Source of the DNA: Rhododendron vialii
Taxonomy: Eukaryota > Streptophyta > Magnoliopsida > Ericales > Ericaceae
DNA: 64,000 bases
Assembly: GCF_030253575.1 (NCBI RefSeq)
Contig: NC_080557.1
Location: forward strand, 44,344,501-44,408,500
Direction: 5' to 3'
Shown piece after piece: positions 6,639-63,700 of the stretch. Numbering within the stretch: the first letter of the stretch is position 1; the number at the start of each line of letters is the position of its first letter. Under the pieces are notes generated by a model that was not told where the DNA came from, did not search any database, and was given only the letters and a program-made list of their open reading frames with translations. A program made the position numbers and the translations under genes.

Positions 6639-7711
6639 CTGGTATTGTTGTGGGGATGAGGTGGAAGTAAGTGAGACTCTCGACCTGATGACCCAACCTC
6701 GGTGCCCTAACCACTAGTTTGTTTGGCTGCTGTATGTGAGAGTCTCACAGTGAGATCAATGTCACGGTCTATTAAAAAGAGCTTGAAGTCGAGGCAAAAA
6801 CTCGTATGAATTGATCAGATATGAAAATGAGTAGCACGAGCTTAGTTGGAGTCGAGGCAAAAACTCGTATGAATTGACCCAACATGAAAATGGGTAGCAC
6901 ACAAGTGAGAGTGAAATCTCAAACTAAAGACTTCTTGAAGCTCCCAATTGTCAATTAACAACCGAGACCAAAGGTTTTGTAATCCTCTGTAGTATTTGGT
7001 TTGTCTGTCTTCAAGTGAAACAGAGAACTAGTCATACAGCTCCTGAACTAAAGCTCTGGATCACTGTGCATGTCTGCAGTTCCTTATTTAAATTGAGTTC
7101 ACGTTGTATCTTTTGCCTTCGGTATTTTTTATCAGAACTTATTTTTTGTAAATTTGTTGGGATTAATCGTTTGTCTTGACGAGAGGAATCAGAAAATAAA
7201 ACATAAGTTCAACAAAAATTCAGGATAGACGAACAAAATACCGAAACGAAAAATACAGAAACTATTAGCGCGAACTCATGTTTTCTTGAAAACATGTGGT
7301 CATCTACACTTCCTGCTTGGCAAAGGACCAGACATTTTACTCATGGTTTTTCAGGGAATTGAAGTACAGCATGATCGAAGATTTACATTGCTTGAGTGAA
7401 CTCAGATCAAGATATCTATTTTATGAGCTTCAACTACAAGAGCATTGAAGACAAAAAGCAATTCAAACTCATCATAACCAACCTTTAAAAGCTTCATCTA
7501 CAAAGATTTAACGCTTAAAAAGCAATTCTAAATTCTCATTAGTCCGGAGTCCTCGGTAATCAGGCCGTGTGCGTCTAGTGTTCACTTCTTAACATCCGCA
7601 AACTCAATCTAAGGTGGATCGACCTTCAAGCATTACCCTCGTCAAGTTTACGTTACATCATATCCCAGAAAAATTCATATTCGTAAGAGAAAAACCAAGA
7701 AAGGGTAACGA

Positions 7712-7904
7712 TCACGCATTATGCTTTGCAGAACCTGGTGGCAAGAAGGTTTCCCACCAGCCACTCTCATATTTTGGATACGGCGCCACCCATTTTTCTG
7801 GCTTCTCAAAATCTAGATCGACAGGATTATATGCCAATGCTTCTGCCAGGCTATCTGCTTCGAAGCTTTCTACTAGAACTCTATCCAGCCTTAACTTCAT
7901 GAAC
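7712..7904 (-). pseudogene. Second (distal) copy of YCF54 last exon
   Basis: This 193-nt exon copy encodes 63 residues starting FMKLRLDRV and ending ETFLPPGSAKHNA, followed by TGA. It is nearly identical to the exon at 11678-11870 (for example V for S, Y for S and G for C). The frame is open, so it is not obviously dead. It lies about 4 kb beyond the proximal copy's stop, and its acceptor side has been altered by the U6 insertion at 7908-7939. The G-phase acceptor CCAG at 7905-7908 is still present, but the original one now sits 44 bp upstream. It could be an alternative terminal exon or simply a relic; I favour relic. Confidence 0.8.
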
Positions 7905-7907
7905 CTG

Positions 7908-7939
7908 GTCCCTTCGGGGACATCCGATAAAATTGGAAC
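7908..7939 (+). pseudogene. U6 snRNA 5' fragment, tailless retropseudogene
   Basis: These 32 nt match the 5' end of plant U6 snRNA as I remember it, beginning GTCCCTTCGGGGACATCC and stopping after TTGGAAC. They are flanked by the direct repeat TTCATGAACCTG at 7896-7907 and 7940-7951. Unit 2 has only one copy of that repeat and no U6 sequence (11862-11873). There is no poly(A), no U6 3' half, and no upstream USE/TATA promoter. This looks like a target-primed insertion of 3'-truncated U6 RNA. Confidence 0.88.
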
Positions 7940-9019
7940 TTCATGAACCTGTTCAGCCACATAATCATGCATCAACTTTCGTGCTTGCTAAAATAAGGTT
8001 ACATACATTTAATCCTTTGTTTTGATCCTCGTGATCTTTTCCCTTCACAAATATCTCCATAAATCAATGATCTATACACAGCCAATGGATTCAGTTAAGT
8101 AAACTGGGACACTAGAAGCCTCTTTGCAAGAGTAAGTGATATAACGTCTTAAGTTTACAAGTGCATCTTTTTTCTTTTCAATAAGATGAACAGAGATGTG
8201 TATTCTCACAATCAGGAAACACAACAGGCATCTCACAAGGGTAAAACACACCACAGACCCCAGAAGAAGACAGACGAAGAAGAATTAGTGGATGCAATGG
8301 TCGATGAACTTTTCCTGAAATACCATAGTTTGTCTATATTTTAGCTACAATGCCCTTGCCCAGATTGCTTAACAGATGTTTGGTACATTTTCATTTTCCT
8401 TAGATACATTTTTTGCCTACTTTACGTGCTTTTAGTAAAATAAACAATAAGAAGTTAATCCGATACCGTTTCCTTTTTTTTACTATTAGTGTTATTTCCC
8501 ACATCAAAGAATTTAATATATATAGCATATGCATCTATGAAAAGAAAAATAAATTTAAAAGCAATCCGGTATTAATTAACTAGTACTAACCGGTACCAGC
8601 CGGTATTGACCGATACAGAAAGAGAAAAATAAATGGTAGTAGCATAACAATAGCGGGAGTATAGAATTACACGTAGTGAGTTTCCAGTGTAGCGGCTGTA
8701 AATTTTTAGCGCAAGTGATCGTAGTCGTGACTAGTGAGGTGTACATGCATGTATATCCTCGAACCGCACAAAAAATGGATTACAAGGCAATTGGTCAACA
8801 AGCATGCAAATTTTGGTATCACTTGCATATGAAGTGTAACAACATCGAATGAACAAAAATAAGGATCTTTCATTCTTACCCGATCGCTACAAAACAAAAC
8901 CTTTTTTGAACTCTTGAAACGGACCAAAAGAAATTTTTAGAGGTTATAAACATTAAGGTGGTTAAATGAAAATGAGTCATGGTTGAAGAGGGTTTAATGT
9001 AATTTTCACTAAAAATAAA

Positions 9020-10688: not shown

Positions 10689-11677
10689 AAATCATGCATG
10701 TATAGCATTTCCTCAGAAGGCAAAAATATCCTGGCATTGTTGTGGGGATGAGGTGGAAGTAAGTGAGACTCTCGACCTGATGACCCAACCTCGGTGCCCT
10801 AACCACCAGTTTGGTTTGGCTGCGGTAAGTGAGACCAATGTTATGTCACGGTCCATTAACAAGAGCTTACTTGAAGTCGAGGCAAAAACTCATATAAATT
10901 GACCCGACATGGAAATTGGTAGCACGCGAGTGAGAGTGGAATCTCAAACTAAAGACTTCTTGAAGCTCCCAATCGTCAGTTGACTACCGAGAGCAAAGGT
11001 TTTGTAATCCTCTGTAGTATTTGGTTTGTCTGTCTTCAATTGAAACAGAGAACTAGTCAGAAAAGCTCTGGATCACTATGCAGAGCTCACGTTACATCTT
11101 TTGCCTTGGTATTTTTGACTAAAACTTACTTTTCATATTTTTGTTGAGATTAATCATTTGTCTTTACGAGAGGAATAGGAAAATAAAACATGAGTTCAAC
11201 AAAAATTCAGAAAAGACGAACAAAATACAAAAACTATTAGCGCGAACTCATGTTTTCTTGAAAACATGTGGTCATCTCCACTTCCTGCTCGGCAAAGGAC
11301 CAGACATTTTACTCTTGGTTTTTCAGGGAAAGTAAAGTATGGTCGAAGATTTACATTGCTTGAGTTAACTCAGATCAAGATATCTATTTTATGAGCTTCA
11401 ACTACAAGAGCATTCAAGACAAAAATCAATTCCAACTCATCATAACCAACTTTTAAAAGCTTCATCAACAAAGATTCAACGCTTAAAAAGCAATTCTAAA
11501 TTCTCATTAGTCCGCATAATCTCCTCAGTAATCTGGTTGTGTGCTTCTAGTATTCACTTCTTAACAACCGCTTACTCAATCTAAGGTGGATTGACCTTTA
11601 CGCATTACCCTCGTCAAGTTTACATTACATCCCAGAAAATTCATCTTCGTAAGAGAAAAACCAAGAAAGGATAACAA

Positions 11678-14600
11678 TCACGCATTATGCTTTGCAGAAC
11701 ATGGTGGCAAGAAGGTTTCCCACCAGCCACTCTCATATTTTGGATACGGTGCCACCCATTTTTCTGGCTTCTCAAAATCTAGATCGACAGGATTAGATGC
11801 CAATGCTTCTGCCAGACTATCTGCTTCGAAGCTTTCTGATAGAACTCTATCCAGCCTTAACTTCATGAACCTGTGCAGCCACATAATCATGCATCAACTT
11901 TCATGCTTGCTAAAATAAGGTTAAATACATTTAAGCCTTTGCTTTGATCCTCGTATCTTTTCCCTTCTCAAATATCTCCATAAATTCATGATCTAAACAC
12001 AGCCAATGGATTCAGTTAAGTAAACTAGGACACTAGATCTTTGCAAGAGAAAGGGGTACAACGTCTAAGTTAACAAGTGCATCATCTTTTTTCTTTTCAA
12101 CAAGACGAACAGAGATGTGTATTCTCACAATCAGGAAACACAACAGGCATTTCATAAGAGTAAAACACACCACAGACCCCGGAAGTAGACAGACGAAGAA
12201 GATTTAGTGGGTGCAATGCTCGATTAACTTTTCCTGAAATACCATAGTTTGTCTTTGTTAGCTACAATGCACTTGCCCAAACTGCTTAACAGATGTTTGG
12301 TACATTTTCATTTTCCTTGTTTACATTTTTTGCCTACTTTACATGCTTTTAGTAAAATAACCAATAAGAAGTTAAAATAACCCAACGTTTTTTATTCTTA
12401 TATAAAAAATTAAATAATCGTAAAATTGTTTGGGATTTAGTATTGTTTTCCAAAAAAAAAAAATCAGGAACAGTGACACGCACTTTTCATTTTGTTTTAC
12501 AGGATATGAGAGAATGAAAACAGAAACCGGAAAACAAAACCCAACATGCACTTTTCAATTTTCCTGGTCATCTGACTATGGGCCAATGCAGTCTATAGTG
12601 CCATACCCAGAATTTTTAAAAATCATCAAAATTTGTTTATACGGGAAGCAGACCCTTAACCTGCTAGTCCAACACGGGCAAAATATGAGGGAATCTGGGG
12701 AAATAGAGAATGAATAAACAACAAACTGAAGGGGAGTACTTACGTGATCCATGTACCATTGGTTGAAACAAGAGCAACAGCAGGTCTCTTCAGTCGCCCG
12801 GCAATTTTGGGAAATTTTTCCAGGAACTTGGGTTCAATCACAAGCCAGAAGTCCTGCTCTTTGTTTCGCTCTCCATAAAGTCGAAGCCGCTCAAACAACT
12901 GCTCCTGGAAGTGCTCCTCTTCATCCAGCATGAACTTTGCATTTGCTACCACAAAATAGTACTTGGTGCTCGTCTGTTGCTGCATCTCAAGACAAGCAAG
13001 GCACGTCAATTTGGCAATTCAGTAAACAATATATACATGAGAATTTTCATTTGTGCGCATGATACACTGCCTTCCAGAGGGCCCACGCACACTCTACAAG
13101 CTGAATGGTTCTACTTATATACTCAATAAGTTAGTTGACATCCCTTTCTAGAAGCGACATATTTTTAGTGTCATCAAGGCCTGGCCCAAAGAGGATAATA
13201 TTGTTATGAACCTATGGTTTAGATGATTGATTGATATCAGAGCAGGACCTGCATTACATTGTCAGGGTCAAGTGGTATGAGCCATCTCTAAAGTCTGTAC
13301 AAACCACCCTTGAGTCCCCCAAGTAGAAAAAAGTGTTGCATATAACTGAGGTCACAGCCGTCTTGGCAAAGCCGTTTATGAAAGCCTCGAGAGTTGAGAC
13401 CCCAGTCTTAAAGGTGATATTAGTGTTATGATTCTGGTGGTGATATTATGAATTAGAGCAAGTCAGATGGGAAGATTTGGGCCACATTTTTTAGTTCTTT
13501 ATTTTTGCACTCGATAACTACCAAGGGAAATGCTACTGACAACCCACGTTATCGCCAAAAACCACGACAGGCACAAGAAAATGCTCGAAATGGTTGAATT
13601 ATGCTTTGACATGTGTAAAAGTGATTGGGAATGTGTAAAGAGCTAAGAAGCATGCCATTTCTATGGAGGAGCAGTGGGCATGTCAAGCACTAACACTCTT
13701 CGTACTCTCCACTCTCCGCGGAGGAGCAGTAGCGTGTCAAGCACTAACACTCTTCATACTCTCCACTCTCCGCATGTCCAACACTTCTGTCACAGGTGTC
13801 CTAATTAGAGACCTAGATCATATTATCAGACACTTCACTGACACTTCTGGAACTATTCATCTAATGTGACAAATCAACTCAGAATAACAATGTTCTGCAT
13901 TCCATGGAATGCAATTTGTCCACTCTATATTTAGTTTGAAATATCTATAAGATGCATATCCACATGTCCATTTCAATATTTAGCAATCATTTCAAATCCT
14001 ATAAAATGCATTTTTTATGTGAATGATATGTGAGTGACATACGATACCTAATTGTCCACTATTTTGTTGCATATCCACTGCTACCTTTAAAACAGCTTCA
14101 TACGATGGAGCTTTAATTTGTAAAAACACTTTGAAAGAACCAGGTGTCTTTTCTTGCATATCCTGCATATTTCATTTAAACATCAACATGACAGCTCCTC
14201 CGTATCACATCATGTGTTTGTTTGTGTGCTATTTTCCTCCCATTACCAATGTTTAACATCTACAATGTGGCATTCATGAGAAGTGGATCAAACTGGAAAT
14301 CAAGTTACACAGGAAACACAAACATTCATCCGCCTCACAGCATCAACAACTCGACGTAATATCCTGCCAACGGATGTCAATGAAACCAAATGGGTAATCA
14401 AAAAATTAAGCACATGTTTGGCTATTCAATCGTCATCACAATACAACTACTCAATCAACGTATATTACTGCTAAATTGGTCATTCAACTAGAAGTAATAT
14501 CAGCAAATGAAAGGAAAATTTTTTTTCCGGTAAATGAAAGGGTAATTCATAACACTAATAGTCTAATAATACCATGAGAACTATAGAGAAAGCGGGATTT

Positions 14601-14863
14601 AAAAAACTGACCTTTTCGGCAGGGCCGGAGGAATCGACGGCGGCAACAGCTGTCTTGACGGAGGTTTCTGTTTCCCAGCTGCCGCCGCCGCCCGTGGCGG
14701 TGGTGGTGGAGATAATCCTCGGTTTGAGCAAATTTTGTGGCGATGAGGACCATAATGACACCGGTTGGGTTCGCTGGAGGCGCATTCGGCTGGTGTTTGT
14801 GGGCGAAATTACTCCCAAGGCGGCTAACGAGGTCGAATTTAGGGTTGCTGCTGAAGTTAACAT
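11678..14863 (-). CDS. YCF54: YCF54-like protein, Mg-protoporphyrin ester cyclase factor
   Basis: Three exons: 14863-14612, 12979-12744 and 11870-11678, with GT-AG introns, giving 226 aa. Exon 1 (84 aa) is Ser/Thr/Ala-rich and looks like a plastid transit peptide. The mature part has the Ycf54 hallmarks: KYYFVVANAKFMLDEEEHF, ERNKEQDFWLVIEPKFLE, RPAVALVSTNGTWIT, FMKLRLDRVL and PYPKYESGWWETFLP. In cyanobacteria and plants Ycf54 is needed for the aerobic cyclase step that makes protochlorophyllide (known for the family). The gene is head-to-head with FHIT, about 850 bp apart. Its last exon is duplicated 4 kb downstream. A 55-bp doublet lies in intron 1. The start is the only Met that gives a targeting peptide in frame with the GT donor. 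Confidence 0.93.
13665..13774. repeat. 55-bp tandem doublet in YCF54 intron 1
   Basis: Two copies of a block starting GGAGGAGCAGT and ending CACTCTCCGC, at about 13665 and 13720, with few differences. The open frame across it is a repeat product. Confidence 0.85.
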
Positions 14864-15713
14864 TGCTACCCGTAGTAGAGAAAAGCAGTTGAAATTCTAT
14901 TCCCCGGATTATACACGGCTTTGTTCAATGGCCGAGCCTCCTCGGGTGGTGAAGATAATGGGAAACGGATAGGATAGTGTCAGCAGATGGAAGTAGCGAT
15001 ACCCAAGACAGAGATGATTCTCTCTCTCTCTTAACTCTCCCTTCTCCCTCTCTCTATATTTTCTCGCTCAAGTCTAGACGACGAGAGTGGCACCAGAGGG
15101 AATCCGGAAACTGAACCACCAACCTTATCTATGGTTTTCTCTCTCCTTTATCTCATCAATGGTTAAATCCACTTTTCAGTTCGGGGGAAAATACTTTATA
15201 GGTACCATAATTTTGTCGAAATTATACCAACCTCCCCAACAGTTAGAAACTTTAGAACAAACAACTTTGGTTACTACATCTACATGCATAATTCGGTACA
15301 CAACTGTGTCCGGAACCATTGATGCACATAAACCATATGCATCTAATAGTACCGGACATGGTTGTGTTCCTAGATTTTTGGGGCAGAAATTAGGAGTACA
15401 ATAGAACAAATTAAATAGCATTGGGTTTGCCAATTTGGAACTGTAAACGAACTGAACTGCTTATAAGCAATTGTCAGCTCGACTAGTATAGTGATTGAGC
15501 AAAGCTCAAGTTTCTTTTAAAGCTCACGAAGTAAACGAGCCGAACTTAATACTTTAAAGCTCAACATCAATTCGAATCCGCTGGGGTCAGAGTCTCAACT
15601 CGAAAAAAGCTCGACTTGTTTACAAAATCAACCGAGCTCTACGCCAATTTTTTGACTCGTTTGCGACCCGTTTTACGGGTCACCCGCCACGAAAAGTACT
15701 CCTATCAAACGTA
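14864..15713. promoter_or_regulatory. Divergent promoter region between YCF54 and FHIT
   Basis: The start codons face away from each other across about 850 bp, so both promoters must lie here. It holds a (CT)-rich tract at about 15018-15056 and a stretch with GAGCTC/AAGCTC-rich words at about 15470-15660. I see no convincing TATA box that can be assigned to either gene. Open frames such as 15087-15404 have no recognisable domain. Confidence 0.6.
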
Positions 15714-18700
15714 ATGGTAAAGGCCTTGAAGGTGCTCGTGCCCTCTCTCTCCTCCTCCGCCTTCAGGAGCTTCAATTCACTCTGCTCCTCCGCTACCCTC
15801 CGCCACATCGCCGCCGCCGCAGTCACCAGCAACAACAAGTCCGCCTTGAATCATCATTCAGTCATCGCCAGAGCTTCGTCTACGTACACACGGTCCAAGG
15901 TAAGCACGCATCGAACAACTTCGGTTTCTTTCACCTCCTTTTGGGAAATTGTATCGATTTCCGTTGTATTGAGCATGGAAATGAACAGATGGAATCGGAG
16001 CATTATACGTTTGGACCGTACAAAATCTCTTTCAAGGAAGTGTTCTACTCCACTGATCTATCGTACGCCATGGTCAACCTCCGCCCTGTTTTGCCTGGTA
16101 AACCCTACTTACCTATACACAAAAACACATACTAAATCACTCTTTTTTTCTTTTTTTTTATTACATCTCTTATGATCGTACCTTTCGTTGACATTCCCGT
16201 AACCTTGCAAGTGGAGTGGTTGGCAACATGCACTCCCGTGCATTTGACTAGGATTCAAACCTTACTTACTTGGTTTTGGCCGAGCAAAAAAAACATTCCC
16301 GCGACCTTTTAGGGTTTTGCTATGCTATAATGGTTCTCTGTGAACATATATTTTGTATTGCGCTTTACGGTTTAAATTTGTAGTTTGACCTGTCAACTAG
16401 ATGTATTCTAGTGTCATGTATGTATACAGTTCGGTGTGCAGGCCGCAGGGTAATATTTTAGGTACTCAAAAAAAAGTTCACACAGTAGTCCTCTATAGTC
16501 TCTGGAACTTATGAATGATTTGAACACTAGGATATCGAGAATGAAAACGAAAGGATAATCAATGTGAAGTTCATTTATATTTTTCTATGACCAACTTGTA
16601 TCTGTGACTCATTTGATTTCAAGGCATATAGAGCAATTGTATTGTGTTATTACCTTCTTCTGTGTTCTAATTTTTATAATTATAGGTGTTGAGTCTGTAC
16701 ATTCAACTTAGTTGTCATTAAGTTTTTTGATGCATCTTTGATGTAGTGTAGCTGTTAACTTTTTCACTCATTTATTTGGGATAAGACATATTCCCTTGTT
16801 TTTTATTGTTTTCATTCATTTGTTTCAGTGATCTATTTAGTTGGGTTTAATTAATTTCTATTTTCTTCTGCAGGTCATATCCTTTTTTGGCTACATTTTA
16901 GAGTTGGATAGTTGGATGTTTGGTGGAAGTGACTTACTGAGGTCATTTGCGCGCACGCACACACATGTTTTTACTTCTGCATGAGCAAACAAGAAATAAA
17001 AGAAGTATTATCTGAAATAAGTTAAATACTATGTTTTCTTCTGATCCTTTGTCAAAGGCTTGCTTGCAAGATTGATGCTATGTAATGTATGTATTGATGG
17101 GCTCTTCAAATTCACTGCACCACAGTGAGTTCAAGTAGGTGTTTAAAGGGCGCATATCTGTTTACAATAGGAAATGCGCAAATGACATGACTTAGTGCTC
17201 AGGAAGTGATTATTGTGTTTGTATAATAGTAAATGTTGACTGCAATATGGCACCAAGGTAGTCAGAGCGTAAACTTTATTTTCTATACAGTTGATTCCCG
17301 GATGGAGTTATTCCAGCAATTTTGGGACTTTCATAGAATCCTTTGAGTGGAGTTTGATGTGTTACATTTGGTCTTTTGTTTCTTCCCCAAATAATCCATA
17401 TGGGCAGCACCCCATTGGTACATATTTCTGGAGTATGTTTACTTATCCAGTTATCCCCCTTTTTTTGGGGATATGGTAGTAAGTACTTTTTCCAATTCTT
17501 CCCTGCATTAAGCATATAATGAAAGTTGAACTTGTTTGCGGTATGTGGGCATATGTATTAGCACTGTGCACTTTCATTCTGGTGGTCGTCATATTTTTAC
17601 CTGTCTCTGACGTTCTGCTTAAGCCGTTGATTGAATACATTAGACGCAAAGATATGGCCTTAATCCATTTATGGATATTTTCAACTTTGAGCGGTTGGTT
17701 GACTTGACATTCTTTACATGTGCTTGTCTGCCCAAGGCGTGAAGTGAAGCGCTTTGCTGATCTCACTGCTGAGGAGACTAGTGATCTATGGCTTACTGCG
17801 CAGAAGATTGGTAAACGACTGGAGCAACACCACAAAGCATCGTCACTAACGTTTACTATCCAAGTAAGATGGTTGCAATTTACTATTTCAAAATGTTTAG
17901 CGAGTCTTTTTATTCGTCTCTTTGCTGTTTCTTTTTTTTTTTTTTTTTTTCTGTAAGCTCTTTGCTGTTTCTTGGATCTGTTGTTTTGAAGATGTGGTTT
18001 TTCCTCCCGAGCTTATTTTCCTCGATTAGGATATTAGAACTACAAACAAGAGGTTCTGTTACCTTCCTTCACCTCTCCCCTCCTTCCCTGCTAGTGGCAG
18101 TGTGACATAATTGCCTTTTTTGAACCAAAGCATGGCTTGAACATGACAAACAAAATTCAGATGTCCTGATTGAAAATTGTATTTGACCTATTGAGCTGTC
18201 TTAATTGTAAAGTTGCCCATGCGAAATTGTTCCTCATGCAAATGACTGTTCAGGCATATAGCTGCATCAGGATGGAACCATTTTGATTTCAAATGTAGTC
18301 AAATGGACCACTTTAGGTGATTTACAGCACTAATGTTACTCTTTACGAAGCAGATAGTCTTTTTTTTTTTGGTACTTCAGAAGTTGAAGCAGATAGTCTT
18401 TGCTTTATTGAGATAGTGTCATTTTGGGTACACTATTGGTTTTAGATAGTTTTTTCCTTGTGTTATGTTTATGCGATTACTTTGTCTTGAAAGTTAGAAT
18501 TGTGAGTTATTTTCTATCATTTTACTTAGAGACTGCAATATCAGATTAACAAATTAGCAAATTTACTGTTGTTTAACCGACCACATGGCTTGTTTGGTAT
18601 TGTGGTAAAATCTGTCTATCAAGATTGAAAATCAAAAGTGTGAGTGATCGGTTTCATATGATGCCGGAGGTTATGCCCCTAGGTTGACAGGGCCAACCTT

Positions 18701-19625
18701 GGCCGTTGGCTTTTGGAAATTAAGATGTGTCTGGGATTGAGAAGTCTATGGTATCATGTCTGAGTAGTCATCTTATTCTTATTACATCCTGCTCATTGGC
18801 CCTAGAATTCATATGCAAACTTCTTTATCATATTACCGTCTTCCCTTTCAAAGACTTCATATATGATTCAGAAATGGGAGCCATCGCCATGTGAAAATAT
18901 ATGAAAAACTAAAGGTTTCAAGGTTAGCATCTACATGCACATTGCTTGTGGCTTTTGCCTCCCTGTGATGAAACTGCCCTCAACTCAAGATTGGTAGGGA
19001 ACTTTAAAAGGTAGTATGTTCATAGGTTATTGCCCTAGTAAATCCAATAATTTGGAAACTGTTATCCAGTTTGTGCTGCACCACAGCTGATCGCCATTGA
19101 CCTGAATAACTGGCGCTGCATTATTTGTTTGCTTTGGAGTTCACTAACAAAGAGAATGCGGATTTTGGGGTCTCCTCTGGATATTTGAATTGATTCGTTT
19201 CATTTTTAGTTGTTGGTTACTGCAACTGCTGCTGCCATTTCTTCAATCCTGTATGATTTATGTCATATTGGTCTTAACTTCTTGATTTTTGCTGGCATCT
19301 TAGGATGGTCCCCAGGCTGGACAATCCGTCCCTCATGTTCATATCCATATACTTCCTCGTAAAGGTGGAGACTTTCAGGAAAATGATGAGATCTACGATG
19401 CTGTAAGACCTAATGCTTCCTTCAATTCTTGCATATCGGATAGTTTTCCGTGAACTGGAAATTCTTAAAAAAATTGACTTGATTGTCTGGCTTTTATTCA
19501 CGATGTAGATTGATGGTAAGGAGAAGGAACTAAAGCAGAATCTTGACTTGGATAAGGAAAGGAAAGACAGGAGCTTCGAGGAGATGGCTGAAGAGGCAGA
19601 AGAATATAGAAGGCTTCTCTCATAG
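15714..19625 (+). CDS. FHIT: FHIT-type bis(5'-adenosyl)-triphosphatase (HIT family)
   Basis: Six exons: 15714-15899, 15989-16097, 16874-16876 (3 nt), 17718-17863, 19304-19402 and 19509-19625, giving 219 aa. Residues 1-62 are Ser/Ala/Arg-rich like an organelle-targeting peptide. The HIT domain follows: [60 protein letters not shown], then [20 protein letters not shown]. The triad motif HVHIHIL is at about 159-165; its middle His is the catalytic nucleophile of the family, which hydrolyses Ap3A/Ap4A-type dinucleotides. The C-terminus is a charged helix ([18 protein letters not shown]). The conserved LPGHVLV is rebuilt only if the 3-nt exon and the AT-AC intron are used. It is divergent with YCF54 and convergent with MCU. 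Confidence 0.94.
16207..16292 (+). mobile_element. tRNA-derived SINE (short copy) in FHIT intron 2
   Basis: Begins GCAAGTGGAGTGGTTGGCAA and ends TTTTGGCCGAGC plus A8, the same layout as the SINE at 35931-36057. It is flanked by a 16-bp target duplication ACATTCCCGTAACCTT (16191-16206) and ACATTCCCGCGACCTT (16293-16308). A B-box-like GGATTCAAACC is present. It looks like the plant Au SINE family, by memory only. Confidence 0.85.
16874..16876 (+). other. FHIT: Predicted 3-nt microexon (GTC) of FHIT
   Basis: The upstream intron ends CTATTTTCTTCTGCAG at 16873. The bases GTC follow, and the U12-type donor ATATCCTTTT starts at 16877. Exon 2 ends with the single base G, so G+GT gives Gly, and C plus AT from exon 4 gives His. 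This restores the family motif LPGHVLVCP exactly. No AG acceptor upstream of exon 4 keeps the frame open. Confidence 0.85.
16877..17717 (+). other. FHIT: U12-type AT-AC intron of FHIT
   Basis: The donor ATATCCTTTT is an exact match to the U12 AT-AC 5' splice-site consensus. The 3' end is CATTCTTTAC. A branch-like TGACTTGAC (consensus TTCCTTRAC, 7 of 9) has its A at 17707, 10 nt before the last intron base, which is the usual U12 spacing. There is no polypyrimidine tract before the acceptor, as expected for this class. Confidence 0.9.
18347..18400 (-). mobile_element. Tiny retro-insert with 15-bp target duplication
   Basis: The 15-mer GAAGCAGATAGTCTT occurs at 18347-18361 and 18386-18400 and brackets 24 bp made of a T run plus GGTACTTCAGAAGTT. 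This is what a severely 5'-truncated, poly(A)-tailed insertion in minus orientation looks like. It lies in FHIT intron 4. Confidence 0.7.
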
Positions 19626-20120
19626 ATATCTTAGTGTTGATTGGCGATGCGAAATGTAATTGACCGATGCATGTTGGCTAACACTATTGTTTAAATGATT
19701 ATAATGATCCGATCAGATGCAATATATGCATCGCCGGAACATGACCTGCATCCGGGCGTTATTATTAATTGAAAATTTCTATTTTCTTTTCTTAAAAATA
19801 TTACGGTGCAGTTGAATCTAAATTTCTGCTTGAATTAGTATGGGGAATGTAGATTCTTTGGACGACACTTTCTTTAGGATGTCATGCACGTTTTGCCAAT
19901 GTTTTGAACATCTTGTTAACAAATTCCCACGGGCTGGATACCCAAAGTTAGATCCCTTTGACATAGCAGTAAACGTTGGATCAAAGATGATATTGGATGC
20001 ACTGTAGCAATGCGTTAGCGGAATTAATTTTTGACAAGCAATGTTTTCTTGAAAGTTGACATCGTTTTGATAATGTTTTCTGGGAAGTTCACTACATAAT
20101 GTTTTCTGGGAAGTTCACTA

Positions 20121-20154
<34 letters not shown>

Positions 20155-20671
20155 GCAGTGCAATGACGACGTCAATAGATGGTATTCAACAGTAAGTAAA
20201 TTACTCAGTAACAGAGTTTCCCATTGCCAAATCGCATATAGTTCCCAGTTTAACATTTCATGAGAGTCTGTACTCAATTGAACACATTTCACGGATCAAG
20301 TAAGATTGTCATATCTCGGTCAGAGTAAAATTTTAACCTATGAATACTGGCCCATCTCCCAGTTCAGTAAAGTATAGTTCATGGATGGAAGTTTGAAACG
20401 CGGTGTTAGGATGCCAGTGGATGGTCCGAAACATATATTTGGCCCCCTCAGATAATAGGAGGGGGGTTGGGTGATGATGACTATACGGTAAAACTTAGGT
20501 TATATTTGGATCAATGATTTGGAAAAGGAAAAGACAAGTGAGACAGAAAAGTTTAAGATCTAACAGCTCACAAAGGTTAGATCTGCAACTTTTCCTTTCC
20601 CTCTTCTAAATACTTGATCCAAGTACAGCCTTAACGAAAATGTCAAAAAACAAGAACTTTCGTTCCAAAAC
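19626..20671. other. Convergent FHIT/MCU 3' region
   Basis: No gene. It holds the 3' UTRs of FHIT (from the left) and MCU (from the right). A 25-bp block containing TTTTCTGGGAAGTTCACTAC is repeated in tandem at about 20070-20121 and is followed by (TC)15 at 20123-20152. Confidence 0.7.
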
Positions 20672-23654
20672 CTAATGTAACGCATCTTCCGGATCCAATT
20701 CCACCCCTATCCTTTGTTTCACAAAGGCAGTGTGATGATCTAGGGGACACTTGCACTTCTTCCGTAACTCAATGAACCTGTTGACATCAAAATTCTGCCT
20801 CTTGATGAGCTTCCTCTGACGAGACAGAAAAAGCCTCTTCATGAAGTCTTGGTAAGTAGGGTCTCTTGACGTAAACATGAAATAGGCATAACCTATGACT
20901 ATGCCGGTGGTGGTGGTGAAAAATGCAATAGGCTCCATAATATCCCACGAGAATTCCCAAAATGTCAGGCGGAAGAAGAGGCCAACCTGTACGATGGCTA
21001 ACCCTAGCCCTGACCACAGGATACGTCTGACCTGCTTATGTGCCAGCATGTCAATTTTTTCTTTACTCTCCTGAAGCTGCCGCAGCTCGTCCCTCATGGG
21101 GTCATCATCAGGTGTGAGAGCAAGGGGCACTGCTCTTCTAACCAGATCCACCACCTGAATATGTTAAAGGAAAGAGAGAATGGAGATCAATTCAAGTATA
21201 ACTGAAATAGAATGGCAAAACTGAAACTTCCTAGAATACAATCTATGTTGTAAGCCTCACGGCCCTCACTCAAATGCCAATTGACATCAGGTCAATAGCT
21301 CAAGATGACCAACAGAGCAAAGGAAATTCAAGTAGTTGAAATACTGATTGAACCACAGTACCACACCATCTATTGGCAAATATTTTATTTCAAGAGCCTA
21401 AGAGGTACAGATATCAGACAACAGATGGAGAGAGTAATTGTGGAAAGAGTAAAGCTACAAGAAGAAGTTGGATGGAAGAGGGAAAATAATCACATAATAA
21501 TAAATTGGTAAGTAATTGAATATGGTAGTACAGAAATGGCATGTAGGGATGAGGAGTTATAACTGAAACAATGAAAGTCATTGTGCGAAATATACAGGTT
21601 CAGATACACCAATGATATTTTTCAGTCTGCTCTATCAATGGTACATGGTTTAAGCTCGTGTCATCATGTATTTGCTCACTACATGACTCACACTCCTAGT
21701 TATCTTCCCCTGAACTAGATGAAACAAATGGGGATTCTACGATTTGCTCTAAGCTTTTCTTGAATGGAGAAAAAGATAAGCAAGCAGTAGTCAGCTGCTC
21801 CATTACACATCATGTCTTGGTAGAACATCAATTTATATCACCGGAAAACCAACACAGATACAATATTACTATATTAGTGACTCAGCACATAGACAACAGC
21901 AAGAGCCTTATTTCACTACTCACTAGATTCATGTTAGGTAATACAGTTCTTCACCATCAAACCAATAGTACATGCAACAATATCCAATTCGGAAGCCAAT
22001 CATCAAGTAACATTCATTATATTGACGTGATCATATGTCAATCCTTTGATAACGTTACAACTTCAAAATACAATCCACTAATCAATATGATGCAATGCAT
22101 TCCAAAAACATCAAATTGAAACGAACTAAGCCAATACTATCGCTATGTATTCAAATCTACAAAGAAGCTTTGATGGTTCCATGGGGAAAAAAAAAAATTT
22201 AAAAATCAGTGAGTATCAAAAGAAAGCAACTCAGAAAATGCAGGATGAGCATGTCCAAAGTGTGCACCTAATAGAGAAAGGTTGATAAGATCTGCACTTC
22301 CTAATTTTGATTAGCTTCATTGAATTTTTATCATTAGATTTTCTTCTCTCTTTCTTTTGGTAACTACCATTAGATTTTCTTTATCCAGTTAGCTTCATTG
22401 AACTATTAACCTAAATTGTTAGGCAAGCATCCTTGTTCTCAAAACTAGAGCAGGAGAAAGAGCCTGTCATCAGTTATTTTCACCTTTTAGGCAATAAATG
22501 GTTCAATTGAATGAAGCTCAAACATGAATGGTCGTTTCCTTAGAATGCTCATTTCGATTTCTAAACAAAAGAATTTACATTATAAATGGAATCATCATCC
22601 ACGTATCGAGATGAATGTCCATTCCATTGGGAGGCCAAGGAATGATTGATTTACAAATTCATTCCACCCAAACCAAACAAGATCTTAAGATTAACAGGAG
22701 AAATAGTAGAGGGGTACAGATAAAAAGCGGGAATCACCTTCCCTCTGCAGCCCCAAACAAAGACAAAGACCCCACAAATCCCAGATACATTCCCTGACTT
22801 CCTCAACTTTTCCCACTAAACACGAAAATTCCCCAACAAGCTCTCTCACTCACACACACACAAACACACAGACCAAAAAAAAGAAAAAAGAAGAAGCTAA
22901 GTTTTAATGATATAACAACCACCAAAAATTCACTGATAAGTACAGGTGCAAGATAGGCCGAGAGAACATGAAAAGGAAAGAGATCCAAGAGTTGTTCTTT
23001 TTCCAAAGGCACTCAACTGTTCTCGATATGTTCGTATAAAATAAGCTGTTTAAGATGAAAGAAGAGGTTGGACGCTCAAATCTCTTGGAGGCATAATTTT
23101 TTTTTTTTTTTTTTATCAGCCTCTACAAGGCATAATATTGAGAATACTCATTGAATGAGCAATTCAACAAGAGAGCTATGAACATCGAAATGCCGCTGAA
23201 AAGTCCACACACACACGGATGAATTTACCTTATCGGGATGAAGATAGACCTTATCTCTGAACAAAAGCACAACCCCAGCCTCATCCAGAATCCTCGCAAA
23301 CGCCACCGCCTCGTCCCTCGATTTCGCAACCCCCAAGCTCTCGCACGCCTCCAGAAGCTCCGAATAGCAAATCACCTCCTTCCCCTCCGTCCCCAACAAC
23401 TTCATCTTCAACGCCTCCACATTCACCAGTCTCATCAGCTTCTTCGCCTCCCCGTACGATATCCCCTCCTCTCCTCCTCCCCCTCCGCCTCCGCCTCCTC
23501 CACCGCCGGACGAGAATGGCGCCGCCGATTTGGCGGCGGAAAGGCAACCACAGGCTCCGAACGGAGTCCTGAACCCTAACGGCGGCTTCGGCCTGTAACG
23601 GACCGCAGCGGCCATGCTCTGCTTCAACAAAATACTACACGATGATCTCCACAT
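20672..23654 (-). CDS. MCU: Mitochondrial calcium uniporter (MCU) family
   Basis: Two exons, 23654-23229 and 21154-20672, with a GT-AG intron in phase 0, giving 302 aa. The N-terminus is basic and Ser-rich with a 12-Gly run and is a plausible mitochondrial presequence. The regulatory/coiled-coil region has [20 protein letters not shown] and [20 protein letters not shown]. Two membrane segments, about [18 protein letters not shown] and [19 protein letters not shown], flank the selectivity motif WDIME (about 212-216), whose acidic residues bind Ca2+ in the family. It acts in the inner mitochondrial membrane. A (GA)n tract at 23795-23823 lies in the likely 5' leader. The two-exon layout is, as I recall, usual for plant MCUs. 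Confidence 0.95.
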
Positions 23655-48300: not shown

Positions 48301-49516
48301 CATGTGTAATTCAATTCTTTCAATTGTCACTAATTTTTGTCGAACCTCCTGAAAGTAGCAAGCATACGTCAAATTTTGGGAAGAAGGTGACCGGATATCT
48401 AGTGAACCGACTTATTTGGGTCCATGACATTGCAAAGTAGAAACATCATCAAACGCAATTTGACTCTTTGAAAGCAAGTACACGAGACTGAAGCATATCA
48501 GTACTGGCTGTGAGGAAGAAAGCAATTACTAAAACAGAAACACAACCATGTAGAAGAGAGCATTGTGGCCACAGCATATCGAACAAGTGATTTAAGAGAT
48601 GACATACAGGCAAACCACCAACAAATTTATAGAGATTCAATGATCACCTTTCAGTAAATAAGTTATCAAGTTTATCTGTTCAAGTAAAAGAGTAATTCAG
48701 TACAGAATTCGAGTGGTTTCATTGCACAATCATATCCATCAGGTTACCTAATGCATGAATGATACATATTTCTGACAAACAAATCAGACCTGAAAATTTT
48801 CTACCTTCGAGGGACTACTAGTAGAGAATTCAGATGCTCTGGTTGGCTATTGGCCGTAAGAACTTTAGATTGGAATCATCTATACCTTATCTATTTGATT
48901 ATAGGTTCTTTTCATAACCGATATTTGCAGCAACAAGCTAGGTTTAGGACCCATGTGATTGGCTAGATAAGTCGGAAGGCTTACATATCCGCTGGACTAC
49001 GACCAGGAAAGTTGTAGAAGGAATTTCCGCCATCTCGTATACAAAGAATACAACCAAGCTAACTGGTATAAAGCCTGACCTTGCTAATCCTCTCCCTCTC
49101 GGTTCAATGGGATTACTCATCCTATTTGATTATCTACTCCCTCGTGTTAGTGTGGGCAATCAAACATAACCTTGGAACTAAGAAATAGACAATTACTATA
49201 TCATATCAAAAGGCAAAATTTCGAGATTAATCTTTTAGATTCGTGCTCAATTTCCCTCTCAGCCCAATAGGTTTCATCGGCTATATAGCATCAAAGTCAA
49301 ATGGAAAATAAGTACGCAAAAACACAAACACAAACACAAACACAAACACAAACACATGAATACGTACATCTCGATGCAAATCATAAAGCCGGGGAGAGAG
49401 AGTACCCTAGAAAGAGTGCGGTTCCACACAGTGACCTTAAAGCCATGGCGAAGCAAGTTCATAGACATGGCCTTGCCCATTATTCCCAACCCTAAAAACC
49501 CAACCTCCCCCTCCAT
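45356..49516 (-). CDS. GLYR1: Glyoxylate/succinic semialdehyde reductase 1
   Basis: Eight exons: 49516-49406, 48062-47952, 47876-47775, 47246-47145, 46850-46735, 46384-46306, 46226-46056 and 45445-45356. All are GT-AG and in phase, giving 293 aa. It is a beta-hydroxyacid dehydrogenase. The NADPH-binding [16 protein letters not shown] is at the N-terminus, then [11 protein letters not shown], the substrate loop [20 protein letters not shown], the catalytic Lys in [16 protein letters not shown] (Lys about 170), and [20 protein letters not shown]. The family reduces glyoxylate and succinic semialdehyde with NADPH, linking photorespiration and the GABA shunt. The C-terminus here ends VKFPEGSS; I recall SRE at the Arabidopsis end, so targeting may differ. 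The leader has (GA)n in gene sense at about 49528-49546. Confidence 0.96.
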
Positions 49517-49703
49517 TTTCCCCCCCCTCTCTCTCTCTCTCTCTCTGTGTTCAATTTCAATGCGGGCACCCCAAATCCTCTGCTCCACTACAGTGTCCTC
49601 TAAATTATCCCCCGAATCTATCAATAAACTAGTGTTTAGTGCAATGCACAAACCCAAATGGGCCAAATCCTTTTCTATGGAGTATTTTTATACCACAGAT
49701 TTA

Positions 49704-57732: not shown

Positions 57733-60700
57733 ATGGCCGGCGGCGGGGAAGGCGAATCGACGACCACTTTGGAGTTCACTCCCACGTGGGTTGTTGCCTG
57801 TGTCTGCACTCTCATTGTCGGCATTTCCCTCGCCGTCGAACGCGCGATTCACTACACCGGCAAGGCATGCTCTCTTTCTCTCTCTCTCTCTAAACAAACA
57901 TAAATATATATACATGTGCAGTTCTTTCTATCTCTTATCTCGTACCCATCTGATAATGAACATAGATTATTGCAGTATCTGAAGAAGAAGAGCCAAAAAT
58001 CCCTCTTCGAAGCTCTCCAGAAAGTTAAAGAAGGTGCCATTCCCTTCTGAATTCTCCCCCCCCGCCCCCCCCACCCCTCTTTTTCAGGCCTTTTGGTGAG
58101 ATTTTTGTACTTTTCTTTCCATTTCTCGCTTAAGTGCAAAAATGGTGAGATTTGTCGAGAAATTATTTTTATGCTTCTCTCCGAAGATCCTAAATGAGTT
58201 CTTTGGCAAGAATATCTCTCCCTTTGGATGGAGAGGTTTCATGAGAAGAAGAAAGGAAAGGGTTATAGTTTCTTGTGAAATCACTCATTTGGATTGAGCA
58301 TTTTGGTGAGAAATGGAGAGAAAGAAATAAAAAAATAAAAAATAAAAAAACTTTTTTGATCCGCCCTTTCCCGTTTCTCACCAAATCTCACCATTTTTGG
58401 TGAGAATGGTGAGATTTGGTGAGAAAGGCTCCCCTTTCCCATCCTTTCTCACCATCATAGGGGAAACTTGTTTTGTTTCCCTTATCAAATCCCTCAATCC
58501 AAAGGGGCTGTTCGTTTCATTAAGTTTAGGGGATCCATCTTTGCTGGTTTTTGACGGAGTCATATATCTGCTTATAATCACGTGCATTTGCTTTTGTTCA
58601 ATGTCTAATTAGCTTTGGTGATGTATGGATGGATGTGTGAATGGTTGCAGAGTTGATGCTTTTAGGGTTCATATCGCTACTTCTGACTGTATTCCAAAAC
58701 CCTATAACCAAGATATGTGTAAACGAGGGGGTAATCCTTCACCTCCTTCCTTGTAAGTTGTCATCATCAGAATCAGAAAGCAAAGGGGAACCTTTTTCTA
58801 ACAGTACCGAAATAACTTCCCATATTGGACGTTTGCTCGCGGAAGGATCGCAAGTGACTGGTTACTGTGCTGCTAAGGTGACCCAACTACCTTTCATCGT
58901 CCGTAAATGCGTACATGCGATGAATGTTAAAATTCATTTGTTTATGTAGTCCAAAGAACCTGCACAATAACACATATTCTGGTTTTATGGGAGCCATCAT
59001 TGAGGGTTTCCATTTATAGATATCCATATCTGTAGTTTCTGCATATTTGCTTGTTTAATCTGTCTGTAGCAGTATATCTCCATGTCTGTACATATCAGTA
59101 GCAGTATAACCATTTATGGAAGCCATCATTTATGGTTTTCATATATAGATATCCATAATTGTAGCAGTATATCTCCATGTCTGTGCATAGTTGCTTTTTT
59201 AGTCTGTCTGTAGCTGTTTTTATCTGGGTAAAATTTACATCTGGTTGCCCTAATCACTGACAGATAAGGGTAAAAACGATTTAAGCAAAAAAAAATTGTA
59301 TTTTCATTACTGTGGATTGCAAAGCTCAATACGCATTTGTAGGGCTTCAGAGAACTGTATTTATGTACGAGGCCTCCTTTGAATTCGCATTGACTGTAGC
59401 AATATATATATTTCATGTGCTGCAAATTTTAGGAATGTCATGATCTGTTGGAAGTGGGTTAACCTAATTGTTGGGGCCAAAGACACAACATGCGATTGGT
59501 GTTGGCAGTGTTGATGAGGAATTGTAGCAATATATATCATGTGCTGCAAATTTTAGGAATGTCATGATCTGTTTGGAAGTAGGTTAACGTAATTGTTGGG
59601 GCCAAAGTCAGCATGTAATTGGTGGTTGATGAGGAATGGTGCAGGAGGTGATTATGCTTGCTTTCGTTGCCTTTTCTTTTCCTTTGTTTGGCTTCTTTTT
59701 TTTTTTTTTGTGTGTGTGTGCTTGTTTTGGGGGGTGGAAGTAAATTTCCCAATCATGCCATGTCTTGAACCTAAAAACCATGGAAATTGACAATAACACA
59801 AAATTTAAAAGATGAAAACTTGTGAAGGTCAATCTTAAAGTTATACATGCAGAATTTTAGGGCGAATAATTAAATTTTGTGCTCATTTCTAAAAGGTTTT
59901 GTGACAATGTACTCAAAACACTTTCTTTTCTTGGTGATAAATTTTTTAGTTTGTGTGATCTAACTGTGCTTCATTTTCGTGCCCCCTCTACTCTGAATTC
60001 CTGAATCTGCCACTGCTGGTGGTGTTGTGTGGTGGTGAATGTTGATGGATCCTTCCAGAAAGATACAAAATTGAATTTGCGGAGTCAACATTGAATGGAT
60101 TGTGTTGGGGAAGATCTTGCTGTTTGGCAGTTGAATAGAATTGTTAGAGGCGTGTCCAATAGTATTCCTAAAGCATTGTAGCGCATGTCTAGTTTTCTTT
60201 TTAATTGTATCATTCAGAGAGTAACGAGGAGCACATCGCTCATGTAGTACATGTAAGAAGTCTGTCAGGTGCCCTTGTCTGATTATAATTATTTTGCTCA
60301 AAGCCTTTAGTATTTAGTAACACCAGTTTGAATCTTGTATTGTCAGTGATGGTGTTGACAAGTCTTAATAGACTCTTGACTGCATGTCTACTAAGGTGCT
60401 AGAGTTGATGTGAAGCTGTGTAGCGAAGATGAGAACATTAGATTATAGCAATAGCTGGCACATGTAAGGTTGAAATCCTTGGAATGTTTACAAGTTTTGT
60501 GTTCGAAAATTATTCATTGATGTTCAACCTTCCCTCTGCAGCCTTTTCAGGCCTACTTTCTAATTCACTGCAATTTTGAATCATTACATTCCCATGTCCC
60601 AGCATCCTTTTTTGCATTTTTGTTTAACTGCATCAACCTTTTACCATGTGAGTTACAATGGGTAGTGGTATGCAATATCAGAAGAAAGCAATGACGTATC

Positions 60701-63700
60701 TTTTGGCCAATTAAACTACGTCTGATATAAACGTAGACCGAAAGGAAATGAATATGTTCTTTCCAAAGAATTCTCACATTCCCCAGGAATTGACTATTCC
60801 TGTGGTCAATTCCTGCTTTTAGGGGGTGGTTTGCTGCTTGCAGGGAAAGTGGGATGAGTCAGGGCTATCGGAAACTGGCTTGCGTTATCGTCTTAGATGC
60901 TTTGCTGACAGAGAATTATCCCTATTGTGTTGATGTCACAAATAGTTCTGACCTCATACCTAATACCTATGATGTGGATTGTGTTGGAACATGTTTATGG
61001 AGTATATTTTGTACTACACTACTTGGTGTTTTGTTCCACCATAAGTTGATTAAGTTCTTATTCAGACTGTTATCTTTGTTGCACATGAAGATCCTCAAGT
61101 TTAATTATTAAATTTGCATCCTTTTCTTTTGTTTTTCGTCCTACAGAATAAGGTCCAATTGGTGTCTGTTGAAGCATTGCATCATTTACATATATTTATC
61201 TTCGTGCTAGCCATTGTCCATGTCACCTTCAATGCTCTCACAGTTGTATTTGGAGGCGCAAAGGTGAGTATGTTATTTCTTTTTTCTTTTTTCCCAAGCT
61301 ATGTTTGGTTATGACTTATCTACTTTTTTAAGCTTCTGCTGTAACTTTTTTGTTCATCATGACATAGATCCGTGAATGGAAACATTGGGAAGACTCCATT
61401 GCAAAAGAAAATTATGAAACAGAAAAAGGTGAGAGTTATCGTCCCGTTAAAGCTTACCTTAATTTACTTTTTCTCTGACCATTTTCATGAATTAGTAAGC
61501 CCATGCTATGCAAGTATGCAGTTAACATTATATTTGCTTTTCTCTTAAGAGTATGTCACTAAATGTTCAACATAATCAACATGGATTATAGATCAATGTA
61601 AGATAACCTAATTTAGCAATATAAGGTCTAGGTTTACAGATTCAAGTTGAAAACTTTTGGTAGTTATTTTGCTTCTGCTGTTGTTTTTAGAATTGTGGAA
61701 GAAATAAACCGTGAGAAAAGGAGGAAAGAAAATAAAAGGGAGTGAGTCATGATTTTGGCATAAGACAGTGAAGGTAGCCGATTGTTTGGAGTTTAACTGC
61801 TTTCATCCTGTGCCATATGTAAAACTTACTACCATCTTGTGCATAATACTTCTAATCTGCGCCCTTTATTGTGCAGTTTTGGGACCAAAGATCACTCATG
61901 TCCATCAACATGACTTCATCAAGGGTCGCTTTTGGGGTATTGGCAAAAATTCAGCTTTTTTGGGCTGGCTGGTAAGTTCTTACCTTCTCGTTCTATGATC
62001 GGTCGTCCACTTCGCAAAAAATTGTACTCCGTATCATTGTTTGACATCACTGCAGACCCTGTATCCCACAATTGCTTATAGTATGTTCGGTTTGAGAGAT
62101 AGATACAGAAAATTTATTGCGGAGCGTGTGCAGGGGTTTTGAGACTCAAACCGGTTCCTCCTAATGTATTGGTTTCTCCTTTATACTTATTTTCTTAAAT
62201 GGTAGAAGTTCAACGTGATATGACACATCCTGAGTTGGTTGAGGCTTGAACTCCACATGCAGTTAAGTTTTTTCTTTCAGTGTCTGGTCTAAAGGAATTA
62301 ACGGGTTACACTTCAGCTGGTAACCCATCACCATACTCAGAAATTCCAGTTTTCCCCCAAGATTGATGAAGGTGGAAGTTGATCCTTGGATTGAACTACA
62401 GAGAGATGTACAGTGTGACTGACACCAATGAGGGAAAGACTTTCATTCACCAGCCTTTCTTACTGAGGCTTGTAGAGTCTAAATATAATTTTTTTTTGGT
62501 AAAAGAGATTTTATTACCAAAAAAGGAGACAAGATACAAAGGGAAACAAAGGGGCATACCCCTGACTACATCACAAAAAGCAGACCCAAACTACACAAAA
62601 AAAAAAAAAAAAAAAACAGAAACCTGGGCTATATGATCAAAGCAAAATTTTCCCAGAAATATTTCAGGCTTTACAAAGGTCTCGATTAACACTATTGCTG
62701 CCCTCTTTTTGCCAAGAACAGACTCTATACCGAACATCAAGAACAAGCTGCTCCATAGTGCCTTCAAGATTAGGGTGTTTGTTGCCAAAAATGCACTCAT
62801 TCCTAGCCTTCCATATATAATACACAGAACCAGCCATGGCTAACTTGTACAGCGCTGAAGGAAAACCCTTTATCTTCAGATGATGGATTGCCCAGGCTAT
62901 CTCCTGATCCCACTCTACTGGACCCGACGAACTCTCAAAGTTTTCAAGGATTCGGGACCAAATTTGGGATGAGAATGAACAAGTGAAGAATAAGTGCCCA
63001 TGAGACTCAGCCACACTACCACACAGTACACACATAGGATCCACTACCAATCTCCAGGATAGGAGTCTATCCTTAGTTGAAAGCCTGCCCCAACATACTA
63101 GCCACATAATGAGAGCCCATCTGGGTATGTTTTGTTTGAACCAAACAATTGAAGCCCAAGGCACCTTTGGACTGGGAGTTCTCAGAGCCTCCCTAGCAGA
63201 TTTGACAGAATATGTACCAGTAGAAGCAGAAACCCAAACTACAGATCCTCAATTGAGATGTTAGGCCTCAAGGTATGGGGAGTACTCCCCATGATCTGCA
63301 TTATAGCCCTATTACGTTGCCTAGGCCAATGCCAATCCTCATTATGAATGATTGATGAAACTTTTGCAAGGAGGGAACTCCCAACATTCCTTACAATAGC
63401 CTCCCCAAACACCTTATAAAGAGGACTCTGTATGCCAGTTGTCCAACCAAAGAAAAGTTTTTCTCCCATTGCCAACCACGTACCTGATAAGATGAACAGG
63501 TCAGCATTGACCGTTTGTTGATGTTTTACAAAATTACGACCGTATGGTTTATATTTGCATGCTGAAACATGTAAAGATTCACTTGATATTCTGAACCATG
63601 TAAGTCGAGAAATGACAATGAATTTTGTCTTCAAAAAAGAAAAGGTTGGCATGGCATTATCTTTGCCCACAAGTTCAGAGCTGGGATAGAACTTCCTCCA

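Follow-up and report, generated by a model that had tools for sequence, protein, structure and literature searches.

A probable three-nucleotide exon between a U2-type and a U12-type intron in a Rhododendron FHIT gene

The trinucleotide GTC at positions 16874-16876 of a 64-kb stretch of Rhododendron vialii DNA (the window, meaning here the whole stretch that was analysed) is, judging from the sequence, probably a real and constitutive exon of a FHIT gene. The arrangement of this candidate exon between an upstream U2-type GT-AG intron and a downstream U12-type AT-AC intron had been proposed in an original prediction made from the DNA letters, and it is supported by the sequence. We consider it quite likely that the explanation developed below is correct as a whole, namely that GTC is a real exon, that two different spliceosomes are used to join it to its neighbors, that the two introns are removed successively in an order that is left open, and that skipping of the exon is blocked. 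All of the positions given in the original prediction, including the end of exon 2 at G/GTAAAC and the placement of GTC, were confirmed (Table 1).

Table 1. Features of the FHIT gene, with positions counted from the first letter of the window
Feature	Position	Strand	Length	Remarks
FHIT exon 1	15714..15899	+		62-aa N-terminal extension, phase 0
FHIT exon 2	15989..16097	+	109 nt	ends CCTG, phase 1; donor G/GTAAAC; placed by translation and FHIT protein match
U2-type GT-AG intron	16098..16873	+	776 nt	GTAAAC ... TTTTCTTCTGCAG
3-nt exon GTC (probable)	16874..16876	+	3 nt	codon positions 2-3 of Gly and position 1 of His in PGHVLVCP
U12-type AT-AC intron	16877..17717	+	841 nt	phase 1; donor ATATCCTTTT (exact); TTTAC at the 3' end
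Candidate U12 branch region	17695..17708	+		TTGGTTGAC overlaps TGACTTGAC
FHIT exon 4	17718..17863	+	146 nt	starts ATGTGCTTG
FHIT exon 5	19304..19402	+	99 nt	carries the HVHIH histidine triad
FHIT exon 6	19509..19625	+		includes the stop codon

The FHIT gene is complete on the plus strand (15714-19625), and its six exons yield an open frame for a 219-aa protein when GTC is included. The identity of this protein is evident from its HIT domain (Pfam HIT, 4.4e-29) and from the presence of the motifs PGHVLVCP, QDGPQAGQ, and HVHIH, in that order. When the 62-residue N-terminal extension is removed, the best PDB chains are 9uch (Bis(5'-adenosyl)-triphosphatase; 3e-45) and 1fhi (fragile histidine triad protein; 6e-42). 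Three NCBIfam families also matched the protein, all of them under their own curated cut-offs. It is the only FHIT locus found in the genome (532.6 Mb, 13 contigs), where the four matches with E <= 0.001 are all exons of this same gene. Scans of the viral_contigs and genome_contigs collections revealed no relative.

The least certain junction in the gene model is that of exon 1. The frame of this exon is open into the conserved Met at 15989 and its donor is AAG/GTAAGC, and the acceptor CAG is preceded by a 17-nt stretch with 29% pyrimidine. The 62-aa extension that exon 1 contributes is rich in Ser and Ala and continues in frame into the conserved start Met, which, when judged by eye, suggests an organelle-targeting peptide. 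Other features were also observed in the window. A gene for a mitochondrial calcium uniporter (20672-21163, minus strand; Pfam MCU, 1.5e-49) lies just 3' of FHIT on the opposite strand. A direct duplication of ~1.3 kb (7112-8458 and 11099-12375) has a spacing of about 3.9-4.0 kb and blocks that are 83-96% identical. Elsewhere there is an open frame at 58641-58949 that matches the Mlo family (Pfam, 2.2e-15), the start of an NAD_binding_2 (6-phosphogluconate dehydrogenase-like) gene at 49274-49687 on the minus strand (5.4e-10), and a retroelement remnant with a zf-RVT domain at 62664-63248, also on the minus strand (7.7e-24).

The need for GTC becomes apparent when the ends of the flanking exons are compared. 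Exon 2 ends ...TTTTGCCTG at 16097 and is followed by GTAAACCC. Farther downstream, CTTCTGCAG terminates at 16873 and ATATCCTTTTTT begins at 16877, and GTC lies directly 3' of TTTTCTTCTGCAG and directly 5' of ATATCCTTTT. Because exon 2 ends with CCTG and exon 4 starts with ATGTGCTTG, the residues P-G-H-V-L-V-C-P can only be encoded if GNC is placed between these two exons. PGHVLVCP is identical in both of the PDB FHIT chains aligned, and within the window it is reached solely via GTC. We assume that the intron position might be common to human FHIT, where it would fall between c.103 and c.104. This assumption was not used as evidence, and the literature searched held nothing on a position shared with the human gene.

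An enumeration of possible joins bears out the claim that GTC alone restores the conserved residues. When a single middle exon was allowed, 746 models stayed in frame without a stop. The one with GTC ranks first alone (score 350 versus 342 for the next), and none of the others equals it. It had also been claimed that exon 2 cannot be joined directly to exon 4, and in the range tried we indeed found no canonical join of this type that keeps the conserved residues. The six best direct joins listed with GT/GC-AG or AT-AC/AG ends all lose HVLVCP, and the two direct joins that yield the same protein have intron ends AA..TA or TA..TT. An alternative reading is that exons 2 and 4 are bridged in some other way, by a different small exon or via a non-canonical junction, and that the layout around GTC is coincidental. 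In favor of this reading, the enumeration spanned donors at 16070-16130, acceptors at 17690-17750, and a single middle exon of 1-150 nt only, and there is a weak alternative, AGC at 17266-17268, whose U12-like donor has two mismatches and which would give PEHVLVCP. However, GTC is the only one of the 746 models to combine the top score with PGHVLVCP, and the chance expectation for an AG-GNC-RTATCCTTT arrangement is as low as 5.6e-5 in the 1620-nt interval, as estimated with a first-order Markov model of that interval. We therefore regard this alternative as very improbable. Looser arrangements are expected more often under the same Markov model for the 1620 nt, with 0.0016 for AG-NNN-RTATCCTTT and 0.048 for AG and RTATCCTTT set 1-30 nt apart. 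The oligomer YTNYTGCAGNNNATATCCTTTT, made from the GTC site, has one match in the 532.6-Mb genome and none on the reverse strand, and its backwards control has none on either. This single match shows only that the GTC site is not a repeated motif.

A second alternative is that the gene is dead or mis-assembled, in which case the exons would be relics that are not spliced at all. Expression of the FHIT locus is presumed here, which leaves some room for this possibility. Regardless, all five introns have recognisable ends and the 219-aa frame is open across them. The HIT domain is likewise whole, this is the sole FHIT copy found, and the sequence from 14000 to 20500 is free of N. Given these observations, it is hard to credit that the gene has decayed or been wrongly assembled, and we rate this the least probable of the alternatives considered.

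The intron upstream of GTC has the hallmarks of the U2 type, with a GT donor, an AG end, and a tract of 17 nt ahead of the terminal CAG that is 82% pyrimidine. Within it, at 16189-16293, lies a short dispersed repeat that shares 77-93% identity over parts with at least 21 other places, and which looks like a SINE fragment when named by eye. We considered whether the whole intron might be a recent transposon insertion, but the matches beyond the locus, at the 21 other places listed, involve only this interior stretch (query 92-196). Among the genome matches listed for the downstream intron, only its own place was found, which argues against its being a repeat. Very common words were skipped in the repeat searches with both introns, and rarity is thus not proven by them.

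At its 3' end the downstream intron reads ...TTGACTTGACATTCTTTAC up to 17717, directly before ATGTGCTTG at 17718, and it exhibits an exact match to the U12-type donor ATATCCTTT at 16877 together with the terminal TTTAC. The exact RTATCCTTT sequence is found once on the plus strand of the 64-kb window, at this very donor. It is also found once on the minus strand, at 29635, where it is assigned to no gene and is probably a chance occurrence. A typical U12 branch site, TTCCTTRAY, would be expected about 10-16 nt before the exon, and the two candidates in the FHIT intron agree with this in position. The original prediction had paired the TTTAC acceptor with a branch-like TGACTTGAC, and although the acceptor stands at 17717, the branch site is less clear-cut than had been supposed. 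The candidate TGACTTGAC (17700-17708, A at -11) has two mismatches to TTCCTTRAC, and the overlapping TTGGTTGAC (17695-17703, A at -16) likewise has two and is equal in quality. At the upstream purine position both have G, and the entire 841-nt intron contains no site with 0-1 mismatch to TTCCTTRAY. Simulated intron ends attain a branch of this quality by chance in 3.6% of cases, and the candidates constitute weak support for U12 identity.

Pairing energies with the minor-spliceosome RNAs were likewise considered as proof of U12 identity, and were set aside because they are ordinary and not discriminating. The energy of the FHIT U12 donor with the 5' end of U11 is matched or bettered by 8.5% of plus-strand 18-mers, and 72% of the sampled 24-mers of the window do as well as the FHIT branch region in pairing with U12. 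Plant U12 introns have been reported to splice better with A at the branch purine position (PMC5932401, available text). Because both FHIT candidates have G at this position, removal of the U12 intron may be inefficient.

The genome appears to be equipped for such an intron. Matches above the Rfam cut-offs were obtained for U6atac (5 of the 5 listed), U11 (7 of the 7 listed), and U12 (6 of the 8 listed), and each of these three families had matches in 0 of 14 control genomes. U4atac gave no Rfam match in the genome, a zero result that does not show absence. Thus, three of the four snRNAs specific to the minor spliceosome are matched, and the genome also carries an AT-AC intron in a CBP20-like gene, which served as a control. 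Of 11 matches to human CBP20, the best two, which both lie on contig C5, represent this gene. Its U12 intron (G000:C5:9870629-9871630, 1002 nt) joins DYDPG/RGGYGK, and has the donor ATATCCTTT, the branch TTCCTTAAT with no mismatches and A at -11, and an AC end. AT-AC ends have been published for plant CBP20 (PMC5932401, available text). The CBP20-like intron resembles the U12 intron of FHIT in its AT-AC ends, its ATATCCTTT donor, its considerable length, and its residence in the same genome. It differs in having a perfect branch rather than one with two mismatches, and a 3-nt exon is not among the features described for CBP20 in the available portion of that same paper.

If GTC is an exon, then the major spliceosome would join exon 2 to GTC and the minor spliceosome would join GTC to exon 4, with each intron being defined across its own length. 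Because the two splice sites of GTC are only 3 nt apart, it is unlikely that both are occupied simultaneously, and the introns are most likely removed in succession. The original prediction went further by proposing that splicing must begin with the U12 intron, which would fuse GTC to exon 4 and allow the minor spliceosome to set the order and to gate expression. However, the argument offered for this order is symmetric. Removal of the U12 intron first would leave GTC plus exon 4 as a normal 149-nt exon with an intact U2 acceptor, and removal of the U2 intron first would leave exon 2 plus GTC as a normal 112-nt exon with an intact U12 donor at its end. The sequence does not preclude the latter route, and we consider a forced U12-first order to be improbable.

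Published data on other small exons give this proposal some encouragement. For 69 Arabidopsis microexons examined by sequencing reads, the downstream intron was the first to be removed, without exception, in 16 and the upstream intron in 4, and of the 49 with both orders, 32 were richer in downstream-first reads (PMC8831610, available text). A 9-nt exon of potato invertase is reported to be spliced downstream-first (cited in the available text of PMC4674806), and the SRRM4-dependent microexons of human cells are strongly downstream-first in 58% of cases and upstream-first in 26% (PMC10250204, available text). But the 49 of 69 plant microexons that exhibit both orders indicate that order is a tendency and not a rule. 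Moreover, the two orders were about equal among the human control microexons, and the human microexons with a downstream-first order had weaker 3' splice sites, unlike the pyrimidine-rich acceptor of GTC (PMC10250204, available text). Minor introns have also been described in a review as slower or less efficient (PMC8329584, available text), and the weak branch of the FHIT intron suggests a slow U12 step. The slowness of minor introns and the branch G where A is better both point to removal of the U12 intron last. Set against the published downstream-first lean, these considerations leave the U12-first and U2-first orders about equally probable. Both routes would be chemically open, and a mixture of the two is most likely.

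The consequences of incomplete splicing can be read from the translations. The frame reaches a stop 12 codons after PG if the U2 intron is retained, and 11 codons after PGH if the U12 intron is. With an early stop following from the retention of either one, a correct FHIT mRNA should depend on both spliceosomes. Skipping of GTC keeps the frame and would give PDVLVCP, but this event would have to join the donor of a U2 intron to the acceptor of a U12 intron. Such a pair is not expected to be spliced together, and skipping should thus be blocked. Splicing failure should then appear as the retention of one intron with an early stop, and not as the deletion of one residue. We infer from the sequence the splicing as drawn here, the order of the introns, and any gating of expression. 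On the same footing, it is plausible that the minor spliceosome gates FHIT expression.

A more ambitious view is that GTC is an obligatory hand-over point, where the two spliceosomes are mutually exclusive across 3 nt, two consecutive reactions must take place, and there is no skipping route because the outer sites are incompatible. We put this forward tentatively and hold it to be doubtful. Were it true, FHIT output would follow the activity of the minor spliceosome, and one splicing intermediate would dominate. Where a single spliceosome excises both introns, it is difficult to test whether the splice sites of a tiny exon exclude each other. The FHIT introns appear to belong to different machines, which would make each step separately blockable and the intermediates readable. 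If the hand-over arrangement is old, then microexons flanked by U12 introns might form an unseen class. The large survey of plant microexons kept only GT-AG and GC-AG introns (PMC8831610, available text), and microexons flanked by AT-AC introns would consequently have been missed and the genes that carry them mis-annotated. Surveys of this kind cannot find the AT-AC members of such a class. The terms FHIT, histidine triad, and AT5G58240 are absent from the main text of that survey.

Several components of this arrangement are already known from the available portions of earlier reports. These include exons of 1 and 3 nt (PMC4674806; PMC8831610; PMC7392893), genes that use both spliceosomes (PMC8034651), and U2/U12 twintrons (PMC3564746). 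What appears to be new in FHIT, on the evidence of its splice sites, is the presence of one flanking intron from each spliceosome, since a microexon flanked in this manner was not found among the matches listed in the open-licence PMC literature. The available portions of PMC12409088, PMC2426677, PMC4667643, PMC13149111, PMC10639083, and PMC6600660 describe no microexon that adjoins a U12 intron, and that of PMC9491579 gives the gene as a list entry only, without a microexon beside a U12 intron.

The closest known systems, as described in the available text of the papers cited, each share some aspects of the FHIT arrangement. The 1-nt microexons of APC11 in Arabidopsis and of VPS55 in land plants are likewise ultra-short internal exons of conserved plant genes whose proteins need them, and separate splicing steps have been argued for them (PMC4674806; PMC8831610). 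The APC11 exon was confirmed via cDNA and reporter constructs, and its authors also argue for the stepwise removal of the introns around the single nucleotide (PMC4674806). However, the flanks of the APC11 exon are described as GT and AG, and those in the survey that includes VPS55 as GT-AG or GC-AG, whereas GTC in FHIT has one flank of the AT-AC U12 type (PMC4674806; PMC8831610). Micro-exon 8 of Drosophila homothorax is a 3-bp coding exon, the same size as GTC, but it is an alternative form of an overlapping 48-bp exon, and the main text makes no mention of U12 (PMC7392893). Genes subject to exon bridging by U11-59K and U2AF have, like FHIT, a U12 5' splice site downstream of a U2 3' splice site. 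Their bridge is described as forming across the exon (PMC8034651), and an exon of 3 nt would leave little room for it. Finally, the U2/U12 twintrons, including those of prospero and of vertebrate genes, resemble FHIT in bringing both spliceosomes to almost the same position in a gene (PMC3564746). The introns of a twintron compete over the same interval (PMC3564746), whereas those of FHIT lie next to each other without a base in common, each with its own sites. They are consecutive rather than overlapping, and both must be removed.
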